From Conchocele bisecta (Eukaryota > Mollusca > Bivalvia > Lucinida > Thyasiridae): a stretch of 64,000 nt of DNA. How positions within the stretch are numbered: the stretch's first letter is position 1; every line of letters starts with the position of its first letter. The DNA is taken from contig CM055275.1 of the NCBI GenBank assembly GCA_029237695.1, positions 3,722,160-3,786,159 on the forward strand, given 5' to 3'. The translations under genes were made by a program, and so were the position numbers. Below, in pieces: positions 20,962 to 50,612 of the stretch. Under the pieces are notes generated by a model. The model was not told where the DNA came from, did not search any database, and saw nothing but the letters and a program-made list of their open reading frames with translations.

Positions 20962-21398
20962 CGGAGCCCCGCAGGGGGCGTAGAATTTTTTTTTTTTATT
21001 AATTCGTTCCGACGAAATAACAATTCGTTCCCTCAATTTAACAATTCGTTCACACGAATTAAAAATTCGTTCCCTCAATGTAACGTCCCCACGAATTAAC
21101 AATTCGTTTCCATGAAATAACAATTCGTTCCCACGGGAACGAATTGTTAATTCGTGGGAACTAATTGTTATATCGTGGGAACGAATTGTTAATTCGAGGG
21201 AACGAATTGTTAAATTGATGGAACGAATTGTCAATTCGAGGGAACGAATTGTTAATTCGAGGGAAGGAATTGTTAAACTGAGGGAACGAATTGTCATTTC
21301 GTGGGAACGAATTTTTAATTTGAGAGAACGAATTGTTAAATTGATGGAACGAATTTTTATTTCGTGGGAACGAATTAATAAAAAAAATCCATGTCTCC
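20962..21398. mobile_element. N-family element with internal AACGAATTGTT array
   Basis: The left end CGGAGCCCCGCAGGGGGCG precedes a poly-T tract; the right end is degraded to AAAAATCCATGTCTCC. The interior is a 20-21 bp array of GGGAACGAATTGTTAATTCG, inverted about its middle near 21,138. A 181-codon minus ORF reads this array (IRSLELTIRS repeats) and is rejected as a gene. Confidence 0.85.
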
Positions 21399-24227: not shown

Positions 24228-24457
24228 CATAAATTTCCAAGCTATCTAGCCAGGTTTCGGAGTCAATTTCCAAAATATAAATAATTGTTCGACTCCTCCT
24301 CCAGCTCCTCTAACTGCATTCACCCCATGTTAAATTCCCATAGAAAAATAAAAGCAATGTTTGACCAAATTTCAGGACATAAAAAAAGAAGGGTTGATAA
24401 AATTTAATATTATCGCAATCATATTATTTTTGCATTGTGTACATGCCTTAATATTTG
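24228..24457. mobile_element. A-family MITE interior, interrupted by satellite element
   Basis: TTTCCAAGCTATCTAGCCAG through CTTAATATTTG is A-family body. It resumes at 27,951 (GGCAGGTTTCGTGAAACAGA) after the 3.48-kb insertion. Removing the insertion and one copy of the duplicated TAATATTTG restores a normal A end. Confidence 0.8.
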
Positions 24458-27400
24458 ATCGGTAGGAAGTTAGCAGTGAACAGTGAGTAGCAGTGAGATA
24501 TACTTCACTGCTGGCAGTGAGCGGCAGTGAGTAGTGAGATGTGTTTCACTGCTGATAGTCAGCAGCAGTGTACAGTGAGATGTGTTTCACTACTGACAGT
24601 GAGCAGCAGTGGGCAGTGAGATGTGCTTCACTACTGACAGTGAGCAGCAGTGGGCAGTGAGATGTGTTTCACTACTGACAGTGAGCAGCAGTGCACAGTG
24701 AGATGTGTTTCACTACTGACAGTGAGCAGCAGTGGGCAGTGAGATGTGTTTCACTGCTGATAGTGAGCATCAGTGGGCAGTGAGATGTGTTTCACTGCTG
24801 ATAGTGAGCAGCAGTGGGCAGTGAGATGTGTTTCACTGCTGCAAAGTGAGCCCTAGTGGGCATGTGATGTTGCATAGTGGCAGTGCAGATAGTGTGCGAA
24901 GTGCAGTAGTGGTTTTCACTGATGCAGTGAGCACAGTGTGCAGTGAGAATGTGTTACTTGTCAAGTAAGCAGTTGGGCAGTAAATTGTTCACTGCTGGAC
25001 AGTAGAGCTGTAGTGAGTAGCTGTTTCTACAGCAGGGCAGTGAGCAGCAGTGTGCAGTGAGATGTGTTTCACTGCTGACAGTCAGCGCAGTGGGCAGTGA
25101 GATGTGTTTCACTTGCTGACAGTAAGAGCAGCAGTGGCATGAGCTGTGTCCCACTGCTGACAGTGACAGCAGTGGGCAGTGAGATGTGTATTTCACTGCT
25201 GATAGTGAGCCATCAAGTGGGCAGTGAGATGTGTTTCACGCTGAGTGACAGTGAGCAGCAGTGGGCATGAGTGATGTGTTTCACTGCTGACAGTGAGCAG
25301 CAGTGGGCAGTGAGATGTGTCTGGCAGTGATCATAGAGCATAAGCAGTGCATAGATAGTGAGCGCAGTGCTAGTGATGTGTTTCATGCTGCAGTGAGTGC
25401 TGTGAGATTTGTACTGCGTGGGCATTGAGACAGTAGCAGCAATAGAGCATTACCTCACTTGCAGTCAGTGAGCGGTAGTGAGTAGCTGTTTTCACTGCTG
25501 GCAGTGAGCAGCAGTGGCGTGATGTGTCACTGCTGACAATCAGCCGCAGTGGGCAGTGAGATGTGTTTCACTGCTGACAGTGAGCAGCAGTGGGCAGTGA
25601 GATGTGTTTCACTGCTGACAGTGAGCATCAGTGGGCAGTGAGATGTGTTTCACTGCTGACAGTGAGCATCAGTGGGCAGTGAGATGTGTTTCACTGCTGA
25701 TAGTGAGCATCAGTGGGCATTAAGATGTGTTTCACTGCTGATAGTGAGCAGCAGTGGGCAGTGAGATGTGTTTCACTGATGACAGTGAGCATCAGTGGGC
25801 AGTGAGATGTGTCTGGCAGTTAGCAGTGAGCAGTAAGCAGCAATTAGATATACCTCACTGCTGGCAGTGAGCGGTAGTGAGTAGCTGTTTCACTGCTGGC
25901 AGTGAGCAGCAGTGTGCAGTGAGATGTGTTTCACTGCTGACAGTCAGCCGCAATGGGCAGTGATATATGTTTCACTGCTGACAGTGAGCAGCAGTGGGCA
26001 GTGAGATGTGTTTCACTGCTGACAGTGAGCAGCAGTGGGCAGTGAGATGTGTTTCACTGCTGATAGTGAGCATCAGTGGGCAGTGAGATGTGTTTCACTG
26101 CTGATAGTGAGCAGCAGTGGGCAGTGAGATGTGTTTCACTGCTGACAGTGAGCAGCAGTGGGCAGTGAGATGTGTTTCACTGCTTGTGTTTCACTGCTGA
26201 TAGTGAGCATCAGTGGGCAGTGAGATGTGTTTCACTGCTGATAGTGAGCAGCAGTGGGCAGTGAGATGTGTTTCACTGCTGACAGTGAGCATCAGTGGGC
26301 AGTGAGATGTGTCTGGCAGTTAGCAGTGAGCAGTAAGCAGCAATTAGATACACCTCACTGCTGGCAGTGAGCGGTAGTGAGTAGCTGTTTCACTGCTGGC
26401 AGTGAGCAGCAGTGTGCAGTGAGATGTGTTTCACTGCTGACAGTCAGCCGCAGTGGGCAGTGAGATGTGTTTCACTGCTGACAGTGAGCAGCAGTGGGCA
26501 GTGAGATGTGTTTCACTGCTGACAGTGAGCATCAGTGGGCAGTGAGATGTGTTTCACTGCTGACAGTGAGCATCAGTTGGCAGTGAGATGTGTTTCACTG
26601 CTGATAGTGAGCATCAGTGGGCAGTGAGATGTGTTTCACTGCTGATAGTGAGCAGCAGTGGGCAGTGAGATGTGTTTCACTGCTGACAGTGAGCATCAGT
26701 GGGCAGTGAGATGTGTCTGGCAGTTAGCAGTGAGCAGTAAGCAGCAATTAGATATACCTCACTGCTGGCAGTGAGCGTAGTGGAGCTTTAGTCGGCGTTT
26801 TCAGCTGCTGGATTTCGTTAGTGAGCAGCAGTGTGCAGTGAGATGTGTTTCACTGCTGACAGTCAGCTCCGCAGTTGGGGCAGTGGGAGATGTGTTTCAC
26901 TGCTGACAGTGAGCAGTCAGTGGGCAGTGAGATGTGATTTCACTGGGCCTGATCAGTGAGCATTCAGTGCATGAGAATGTGTTTCACTGCTGATGTGAGA
27001 GCATCAGTGGGCAGTGTGATGAGTGTGTTTCACTGCTGACAGTGTGCTAGCAGTGGGCAGTGAGATGTTTCACTGCTGATAGTGAGCAGCATGGGCATGA
27101 GATGTTTTTCACTCTGACCAGTGAGCAGCAGTGGGCAGTGAGATGTGTTTCACTGCTGTGTTTTCACTGCTGCATAGTGAGCATCATGGGCAGTGAGATG
27201 TGTTTCATGCTGATAATGAGCAGCAGTGGGCATGAGATGTGTTTCTTTTCACTGACAGTGAGCACAGTGCAGTGAGATGTGTCACTGGCTGATGTGAGCA
27301 TTCAGTGGGCAGTGAGATGTGTTTCATGCTGATAGTGAGCAGCCTGCAGTGAGATGTGTTTCACTGCTGACAGTGAGCAGCAGTGTGCAGTGAGATGTGT

Positions 27401-27941
27401 CTGGCAGTTACAGTGAGCAGAAGCAGCAATGAGATATACCTCACTGTTGGCAGTGAGCGGCAGTGAGTAGCTGTTTCACTGCTGGCAGTGAGCAGCAGTG
27501 TACAGTGAGCAGCAGTGGGTAGTGAGATGTGTTTCACTGCTGACTGTGAGCAGCAGTGGGCAGCAAGATGTTTATGGAAGTTAGCAGTGAGCAGTAAGCA
27601 GCAATGAGATATACCTCACTGCTGGCAGTGAGCGGCAGTGAGTAGTGAGATGTGTTTCACTGCTGACAGTGAGCAGCAGTGGGCAGTGAGATGTGCTTCA
27701 CTGCTGACAGTGAGAAGCAGTGAGTAGTGAGATGTGTTTCACTGCTGCCAGTGAGCAGCAGCGTACAGTGAGATGTGTTTCACTGCTGACAGTGAGCGGC
27801 AGTGGGCAGTGAGATGTGTTTCACTGCTGACAATGAGCAGCAGTGGGAACTGACATGTGTCTGGTAGTTAGCAGTGAGCAGTAAGCAGCAGTGAGATATA
27901 TCTCACTGCTGCTTACTGCTCACTGCTAACTTCAAATCGAT
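24458..27941. mobile_element. 3.48-kb TIR element filled with a ~41-bp satellite
   Basis: The ends ATCGGTAGGAAGTTAGCAGT and (complement) ATCGATTTGAAGTTAGCAGT are inverted, with 9-bp TAATATTTG direct repeats outside (24,449-24,457 and 27,942-27,950). The interior is ~80 units of ~41 bp: GCAGTGAGATGTGTTTCACT then GCTGACAGTGAGCAGCAGTGG. Each unit holds a short stem, GCAGTGA / TCACTGC, also found in the terminal sequence. A 64-bp perfect palindrome closes the right end (27,867-27,930). Blocks at 24,840-25,450 and 26,760-27,360 are full of 1-2 base indels. No coding capacity. A 9-bp duplication fits Mutator-like or fold-back elements; class assignment is inference. Confidence 0.85.
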
Positions 27942-28114
27942 TAATATTTGGGCAGGTTTCGTGAAACAGACAGCGAGTCGCGTTTCTCTTGCGAGAGCAG
28001 CCATAATTTATGTAATACATCATCATTGCGCAGGTGTACAAATGCACCATAATACAGTTATGTGTACGTGTACAATGTAAATCTCAGGTACTGGAGACAC
28101 AGAGCAACTAATTA

Positions 28115-30242: not shown

Positions 30243-30549
30243 CAGAGCCCCGCAAGGGACATGGATTTTTTTTATAATTCGTTCCCACGAAATAACAATT
30301 TGTTCCTTCAATTTAACAAATCGTTCCCTCGAATTAACAATTTGTTCCCACGATATAACAATTCGTTCAAATCATTCGTTCTCACGATATAACAATTCGT
30401 TCCCACGAATTAACAATTCGTTCCCGTGTTGTTAATTCCTGGGAACGAATTGTTAAATTGAGGGAACGAATTGTTATTTCGCGGGAACGAATTGTTATTT
30501 CGTGGTAACGAATTAATAAAAAATAATTCTACGTCCCCTGCGGGGCTCC
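30243..30549. mobile_element. N-family element, both ends present
   Basis: The left end AGAGCCCCGCAAGGGACATG precedes poly-T; the right end is CGTCCCCTGCGGGGCTC. The interior is an AACGAATTGTT/AACAATTCGTT array inverted about its middle. Confidence 0.9.
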
Positions 30550-35117: not shown

Positions 35118-35323
35118 CGGAGACCCACGAAATAACAATTGGTTCCCTCAATTTAACAATAACAATTCGTTCCCACGGGAACGAATTGCTAATTCGTGGG
35201 AACGAATTGCTATATCGTGCGAACGAATTGTTATTTCGAGGGAACAAATTGTTAAATTTAGGGAACAAATTGTTATTTAGTGGGAACGAATTAATAAAAA
35301 ATAAACATGTCCCCTGCGGGGCT
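35118..35323. mobile_element. N-family element, left end lost
   Basis: The AACAATTGGTT / GGGAACGAATTGCTAATTCG array ends with CATGTCCCCTGCGGGGCT. The GAGCCCCGC left end is replaced by GGAGACCC. Confidence 0.85.
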
Positions 35324-48852: not shown

Positions 48853-50612
48853 ATAAGGTTCGACAATGTCCAGGCGTGGATAAACGTTTGCCGTGACACT
48901 CGGGAACTGTTTGAACCCCAAGGCCGTAGGCAATGCATGTGTTAGCACAATATAAGGTTCGACAGCATCCAGCCGTGGGTAAACGTTTGCCGGGGAACAA
49001 CCCCAAGGCCTGGCAAGCTGTGTTGCACATAAGGTTCGACAGCATCCCGCCGGGGTAAATTTTGCCGTACACCGGGAACTGTTGAACCCCAAGGCCGTAG
49101 CAATGCATGTTAGCCAATATAAGGTTGACAGCACCAGCCTGGGTAAACGTTTGCCGACACTCGGGAATTTGAACCCCAACCGTAGGCAATGCATGTGGTT
49201 AGCCAAATATAAGTTCGGACAGACCAGCCGTGGGTAAACGTTTGCCGTACACCTCGGAATTCTGGTTTGAACCCGCCGGGCGAGGCCGTAGGGCATTGCC
49301 CCAATGGTGTTTTTAGCACAATAAAAGGTTCTACCAAAGCCAACAGGGCCGTTTGGGTAAACGTTTGCCGGTTGACACTCGGAACTGTTTGAACCCCTTT
49401 AAGGCCGTAAGCATTTGCAATGGTTGTAGCCAACAATAATTTAGGTCCGAACAGCAATCCCGCCGAGGGTTAAACGTTTGCCGTGACACTCGGGAACTTT
49501 GTGGAACAGGCCGTTAGGCCAAATGCATGTGTTTTATGCAACAAGATAAGGTTCGACAGCAACCACCGTGGGTAAACGTTTTTGCCTGACAACTCGGGAA
49601 CTGTTTGAAACCCCAAGGCCCGTAGCAATGCATTGTGGTTTTAGCACCAATAAAGAGTTCACAAGCCCCAATCCAGCAGTGGGTAACAACGTTTGCCGTG
49701 AAACATCTCGGGAACTGTTTGAACCCCAAGGCCGTAGGCAATGCAAGTGTTTAAGCACAATATAAAGGTTTCCACAGGCATCCCCAAGCCCGTGGGTAAA
49801 ACGTTTGGCCGAGACCAAAACCTATTCGGGAACTGTTTGGAAACCCCAAGGCCGTAGGCAATCCTGTTGTTAGCACAAAATTATTAAAAGGGTTCGCCAC
49901 ATCAACCCCAAGGCCGTGGGTAAACGTTTGCCCGGTTGACCAAAACCTTTCCTGGAAACTGGTTTGATTTCCCCAAGGGCCGTAGGCAAATGCATGGGTG
50001 TTAAAGCACAATATAAAGGTTTCGACCGGCATTCCAAGGCCGTGGGTTTAAACTTTGCCGTCCAGGCCAAAACTTTTCCGGGTAACTGGGAATTTTGAAC
50101 CCCCAAGGCCGTAGGCAATGCATGTGTTAGCACAATTAAGGTTTCGACAGCTTCCAGCCGAGTGGGTAAACGTTTGCCGTTGACACTCGGAACTGTTTGG
50201 AACCCCCAAGGCCGTTTAGGCAATTGCCCATGTTTGTTAAGCCCCAACCAATAAATAAGTTCGACCAAGCAACCCAGCCGTGGGTTAAACGTTTGCCGTG
50301 ACAAACACCTGGGAACTGTTTTTGAACCCCAAGGCCGTAGGCAATGCATGTGTTAGCACAATATAAGGTTCGACAGCATCCAGCCGTGGGTAAACGTTTG
50401 CCGTGACACTCGGGAACTGTTTGAACCCCAAGGCCGTAGGCAATGCATGTGTTAGCACAATATAAGGTTCGACAGCATCCAGCCGTGGGTAAACGTTTGC
50501 CGTGGCACTCGGGAACTGTTTGAACCCCAAGGTCGTAGGCCGCGGGTTCAAACAGTTCCTGAGTGCTACGGCAGACGTTTACCCACGACAGGACGTGGTC
50601 AAACATTATTGT
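48853..50612. mobile_element. Y-family 99-bp array with inverted terminal unit
   Basis: About 17 units of AAGGTTCGACAGCATCCAGC, CGTGGGTAAACGTTTGCCGT, GACACTCGGGAACTGTTTGA, ACCCCAAGGCCGTAGGCAAT. The last unit is inverted (50,541-50,612), so the array ends are complementary over ~45 bp. Edge units are clean; middle units (about 49,000-50,320) are full of single-base indels. Numerous minus-strand ORFs are array read-through. Confidence 0.9.

Follow-up and report, generated by a model that had tools for sequence, protein, structure and literature searches.

What is known of transposons that turn into satellites? The closest precedent that we found is Tetris of Drosophila virilis, a fold-back element that seeded a satellite. 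As described in the parts of the report used here, Tetris is non-autonomous, has target duplications of 8-10 bp, and carries, within its inverted ends, tandem repeats related in sequence to the outer end domain; these repeats grew in place into a satellite with arrays of up to 66 copies, a transposase was not found, and Mutator was suggested as its affiliation (Dias et al., 2014, PMC4079207). The Tm1 elements of root-knot nematodes, according to the relevant sections of their description, have composite ends in which the number of short tandem repeats varies, target duplications that are mostly of 9 bp, and short members that resemble MITEs, and one member codes for a Phantom-type Mutator transposase; the same source cites the FB elements of Drosophila, whose inverted ends are built of repeats (Gross and Williamson, 2011, PMC3169594). 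In Xenopus, the internal repeat number of the MITEs miDNA4 and Xstir varies and can grow into satellite arrays, miDNA4 being a Tc1/mariner MITE whose repeat was presumably acquired by capture (PMC12628747), and among bivalves the Cg_HINE Helentrons of the oyster are non-autonomous elements with central satellite-like arrays (PMC7492417).

The birth of a satellite is difficult to study, as in most cases neither the ends nor the landing scar survive. We describe a copy of a transposon-like element from the bivalve Conchocele bisecta in which both remain. It lies in the window, the whole stretch of 64,000 nucleotides that was analysed, and we consider it likely that a short fold-back member with terminal inverted repeats (TIRs) inserted into a MITE and that its interior then grew in place. 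Insertion followed by the filling of an element with self-derived repeats is a known route from transposon to satellite.

A bounded insertion in a MITE

The insert measures 3,484 bp (24458-27941) and is made almost wholly of 41-bp repeats; coordinates of the element and its host are given on the + strand, the two copies of the target duplication being assigned to neither strand. It opens with a left tip and sub-terminal sequence (ATCGGTAGGAAGTTAGCAGTGA..., 24458..24502) and closes with a right end consisting of junction, direct arm, axis, inverted arm and tip (27855..27941), which contains a perfect 31-bp stem. With one end inverted, 39 of the outermost 45 bp are identical between the two. Both borders carry TAATATTTG, as a left (24449..24457) and a right (27942..27950) copy of the target duplication that match at 9/9, a given match of this quality having a chance probability of p ~6e-6 at the base composition of the window. 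The host MITE enters the empty-site alignment with a left part (24331..24457) and a right part (27951..27974): when the insert and one TAATATTTG are removed, the flanks rejoin with no gap at the insertion point in alignments to 3/3 MITE paralogues, which were chosen within the window and lie at ~60.7, 1.1 and 56.2 kb. By its inverted ends, its 9-bp duplication and the gap-free empty-site alignment, the insert is thus a bounded insertion and no free satellite. The first-pass annotation had described the array as bounded by inverted ends, with a perfect 9-bp duplication outside them and a surrounding MITE that rejoins cleanly on removal, and is borne out on all three points.

Within the insert, the array proper (24490..27860) comprises ~81 copies of the monomer as scored by TRF (period 41, 72% matches, 11% indels). 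Its monomer resembles the tip-proximal 42 bp, about a quarter of the places differing between the two. This tip-adjacent stretch aligns to the 41-mer with a score of 20, the maximum among 2,000 dinucleotide shuffles being 12, and since it outscores the shuffles by so much, we read the 41-mer as a duplicated, diverged end unit.

The quality of the array is uneven. Counted against the 41-mer in 200-bp bins, indels amount to 6.9-19.2% over 24887-25486 and to 7.7-12.9% over 26687-27486; the remaining bins of the array contain 0-3.4%, with the exception of one at 7.0%, explained by a clean 14-bp duplication that it contains. The two indel-rich patches of ~600 bp, whose limits we set by eye at 24840..25440 and 26790..27390, are probably unpolished long-read sequence, so that the monomer count and the array length are insecure rather than exact. 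Elsewhere in the window, an unrelated 99-bp tandem array (48914-50273) has very many single-base insertions and deletions and few substitutions, resembling raw long-read sequence that remained in the assembly. The noise there is stronger, with 104 insertions and 14 substitutions in the 565 bp of 49709-50273, and the last copies of that array (50274-50540) are nearly clean.

The tip family in the genome

In the 1.89-Gb assembly, a 22-bp tip pattern is found without mismatch at 158 places (81 forward and 77 reverse), and its reversed control at 0. Target duplications were scored in 15 paired copies, namely the window copy, L036 (169 bp), L043 (212 bp), L044 (284 bp), L052 (1,616 bp) and ten convergent tip pairs 4.4-37.5 kb apart. 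Not in this sample are L045 (sister of L044, sharing its duplication), L053 (left tip degraded) and the convergent pair L047/L048, which is 72.7 kb apart and has mismatched flanks. The duplication matches at 9/9 in 11 of the 15 copies and at 8/9 in two (L043 and C5:49.1 Mb), and two have none (L039 and C3:118.8 Mb). At a further locus, L046 (C2:62504589-62504645), two tips of the family stand 35 bp apart in the same direction, one of each tip subtype.

In the larger copies for which both ends are visible, the order from the tip inwards is a short 41-mer array, a 45-mer array and the interior, followed by the same order inverted. The succession of 41-mer and 45-mer arrays is inverted at the two ends of L039, L040 and L041/L042, and the interiors of L040 and L039 contain further repeats of ~371 bp, which in L040 occur in both directions. 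The window copy has no 45-mer and keeps the tips, the 41-mer array and the palindromic right end. Long inverted ends of tandem repeats in several domains, as in FB-like elements, are thus found in this family together with target-site duplications, and its architecture is of the fold-back type. The first-pass annotation had read the element as a TIR element with an array derived from its own end and had likened it to fold-back elements. The 158 tips, the 9-bp duplications and the similarity of tip and monomer support the former, and the repeat-built inverted ends with their several domains support the latter. It had named ends occurring only at this site as one outcome that would overturn its view, which is not what the genome contains, and the other copies that it had proposed to look for exist: 9-bp duplications accompany short as well as long copies, and copies of 212 and 284 bp lie elsewhere.

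How far has the array of the window copy grown beyond that of its relatives? Outside the window, 41-mers stand beside the tip in 47 of 56 tips, and the tip together with its 41-mer run measures 47-559 bp there, a value of 47 bp (9 rows) meaning that no run was found; the median over all 58 distinct tips is 150 bp. The window copy, with ~3.4 kb, is the most expanded copy seen, its own two tips scoring 402 and 2,452 bp owing to interruptions of the array by noise.

Target duplications around 9 bp long are one of the traits by which the Mutator superfamily (MULE, including Phantom) is recognized, and those of the present family, in combination with its fold-back ends, point to Mutator as the candidate affiliation. 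The link to Mutator-like elements that the first-pass annotation had drawn therefore holds for the duplications; identity with Mutator is still a matter of inference, no transposase having been found inside any copy examined. A six-frame search of the interiors of L041 and L040 returned no MULE-type transposase domain. When 148 of the 150 scored MULE places, out of 503 MULE candidates, were compared with 120 listed end places, the listing covering 100 of the 158 tips, the nearest in these incomplete lists lay 12 kb away, and the tip was present in 0 of ten fetched MULE loci. One open MULE gene at L053/L059 (C9:65.81 Mb), with a 455-codon frame, PF10551 and, by eye, a SWIM-like motif, is absent from the scored MULE list and lies ~1.1 kb outside a 1.5-kb copy of the tip family. 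We rejected it as the autonomous partner, as it stops at L053:884, short of the copy at ~L053:2012-3500; homology searching with a portion of this gene found four relatives, none of them named. Helitrons and Helentrons are not known to make target duplications, nor to have paired inverted tips. Inverted tips and 9-bp duplications being present here, an identity with either was rejected.

Some tip pairs enclose long stretches. Among the seven convergent pairs with fetched flanks, four span 21.8-37.5 kb, and their duplications match at 9/9 in three cases and at 8/9 in one. The pairs at C7:67.28-67.30, C2:106.48-106.50 and C5:49.15-49.19 Mb, separated by 21.8, 23.0 and 37.5 kb, have duplications of 9/9, 9/9 and 8/9, respectively. 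The fourth, a tip-bounded stretch of 31.4 kb, contains virus-like genes at C3:40.27-40.28 Mb, in L087:2167-2769 (-) and L088:5238-6170 (+), with a Pox_A32-type packaging ATPase (PF04665, E 4.2e-6) and a viral-type DNA polymerase B (PF03175, E 3.5e-6). Among the 120 matches listed for the ATPase, four relatives belong to bins assigned the name Candidatus Thiodiazotropha, a group of lucinid clam symbionts. In the part of this stretch that was opened, virus-like genes extend to ~L088:6852 and a 45-mer array begins at L088:7068, which matches the arm of L040 at 91%, the match starting in mid-array. This match makes a virus-like element nested in a fold-back copy the simpler reading, with one boundary seen, and the reading as a giant transposon was rejected on this opened part; the genes presumably belong to a nested Polinton-like element.

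Body units, recombinant junctions and the history of the array

In the subgroup of the window copy, the right end is a palindrome, which folds into a 31-bp stem closed by a 4-base loop (z = -13.2, 0/200 shuffles as good). Its junction recurs inside the array and divides it into a first stretch of 1,349 bp and subsequent body units of 500 bp (25807..26306), 404 bp (26307..26710), 686 bp (26711..27396, largely within a noisy patch), 173 bp (27397..27569) and 285 bp (27570..27854). All five internal junctions outside the first noisy patch (25807, 26307, 26711, 27397 and 27570) are recombinant, being of right-end type before the axis and of left-end type after it. The diagnostic base before the axis distinguishes AAGCAGC in 3/3 right ends from a T in 7/7 left ends, and the sequence after the axis is that of left ends (ATAYACCTCACTGYTGGCAGTGAGCG). 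The switch falls within an interval of 14 bp that includes the axis when the left ends of the subgroup (window, L043 and L044) serve as reference; the left ends of L040, L041 and L052 are without the second diagnostic base, and against them the interval is wider. The junction at 27570 has two mismatches, with left-like bases at its start, and that at 27397 has small indels and is found by a looser match only. A further junction near 25315 is discernible by eye within the noisy patch, where noise precludes scoring.

In the genome, the diagnostic junction (<=2 mismatches) occurs at nine places. Five are in the window element, namely four internal junctions and the right end's own, the pattern search having missed that at 27397; L043, L044, L045 and L086 (C6:8.19 Mb), the last a locus where no left tip was found, have one each. 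The junction is thus multiplied in the window copy only. The five internal junctions probably stem from one first duplication from which bodies were copied, and not from five events. The monomers present a similar picture: 46 of the 52 gap-free window monomers have their nearest neighbour within the window (159 compared, the noisy window monomers having dropped out and the 107 outside monomers including some loci in duplicate). One monomer type is found in identical form in the window and in outside copies.

How could such an array have arisen? A short non-autonomous TIR member of the fold-back type, comparable to the copies of 212 and 284 bp, would have inserted into the MITE by means of a transposase that leaves 9-bp duplications. 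Growth would then have proceeded at two levels, the gain of 41-bp monomers inside the inserted element and the tandem duplication of the whole element body. For the latter, the perfect palindrome of the right end would have supplied a direct copy of left-end sequence. If the real left end and this direct arm underwent unequal exchange or template switching near the palindrome axis, the body would be duplicated, and both tips and the target duplication would be spared. Such exchange or switching is the simplest account of the junctions; the order of the events, the mechanism of exchange and the kind of transposase are what we infer.

Between the two options that the first-pass annotation had left side by side, movement as an array and expansion in place, the comparison favours the second, because the junction is multiplied only in the window copy and the window monomers are closest to one another. 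An array that grew elsewhere and reached this site as a whole 3.5-kb element, by cut and paste and with no donor left, appears unlikely to us. Its tips and 9-bp duplication are intact and would make the full-length element a possible substrate, and duplication-bearing tip pairs up to tens of kb apart indicate that length is no clear bar, but in the one such pair that was opened, the tips seem to have been moved apart by a nested insertion of later date. Moreover, more than one junction is present in no other copy, and a run above 559 bp at none of the 56 other tips. That much of the array is an assembly artefact, in which noisy or misjoined reads were laid over a much shorter element, is suggested by its two indel-rich patches and by the plainly noisy array elsewhere in the window; however, 25487-26686 is mostly clean and includes junctions and the complete bodies of 500 and 404 bp, which renders this explanation quite improbable. 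Finally, a satellite that merely seems bounded, or that pre-existed and was captured by the MITE, has in its favour that a monomer which departs from the tip-proximal stretch at roughly one place in four could have a separate origin, but it is hardly credible in view of the 41-mers beside 47 of 56 outside tips, and a free satellite was rejected on the 158 tip matches, the target duplication and the empty site.

In addition to the growth in place that we favour for the window copy, a second array was found at another copy of the family. L044 (C11:6414300-6415000) and L045 (C11:6546300-6549000) contain the same element with the duplication CGATATAGC and appear to be sister loci that share this insertion. 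The wider locus L005 has stretches that match L045 on both sides, one at 87% and the other at 75%. The end is present in single copy in L044 and is part of 17.0 copies of a 72-bp unit in L045. This unit consists of ~24-26 bp of flank, including the duplication, and 46-48 bp of tip and palindrome arm, and it ends 3-5 bp past the axis, two bases fitting both sides. L045 also contains an array of a 21-bp repeat (AATTCGTTCCCACGAAATAAC and its complement; L045:2152-2478), which forms further arrays in the window at 21001-21376, 30276-30514 and 35177-35292, its blocks facing opposite ways at some places.

With breakpoints near the axis in two cases, the window and L045, a role of the axis, where a hairpin would turn, is suggestive. 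We tentatively entertain the possibility that palindromic transposon ends seed satellites, with switching or exchange at the axis duplicating whatever lies between direct copies of the arm, which would be the body in the window and flank plus arm in L045. If the axis were a recurrent breakpoint, fold-back ends would be a testable source of new satellites.

Comparison with known systems

A literature search of partial coverage found no description of the present tip family. With Tetris it has in common the fold-back ends, the tandem repeats related to the ends, the in-place growth into a satellite that we favour here, and a transposase that was not found (PMC4079207). This likeness is one of description. 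The Tetris repeat has ~220 bp compared with 41 bp here, and in the parts of the Tetris account used here there is neither a body-level unit recombinant between the ends nor an empty site at an expanded copy (PMC4079207). The repeat-built composite ends, the 9-bp duplications and the MITE-like short members resemble those of Tm1, which, unlike the present family, has a coding member and whose account, in the sections considered, is without satellite expansion; the FB elements of Drosophila resemble the family, by description, in their repeat-built inverted ends (PMC3169594). Growth of a MITE-internal repeat into a satellite is shared with miDNA4 and Xstir, the difference from miDNA4, as far as it is described in the portion used, being the 9-bp duplications and a repeat that resembles the element's own end (PMC12628747). 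The Cg_HINE elements are likewise non-autonomous mobile elements with central satellite-like arrays, whereas the present family has paired inverted tips and 9-bp target duplications (PMC7492417).

Thus, as far as these sources were covered, both the transition of fold-back end repeats to a satellite (Tetris, PMC4079207) and expansion inside a MITE (PMC12628747) were known before. The present locus adds intact ends with an empty-site comparison, a body unit recombinant between the two ends, and a pair of sister loci with and without a second array. Because short relatives, an expanded copy with its ends and empty site, and the sister pair are all found in a single genome, the breakpoints become readable.
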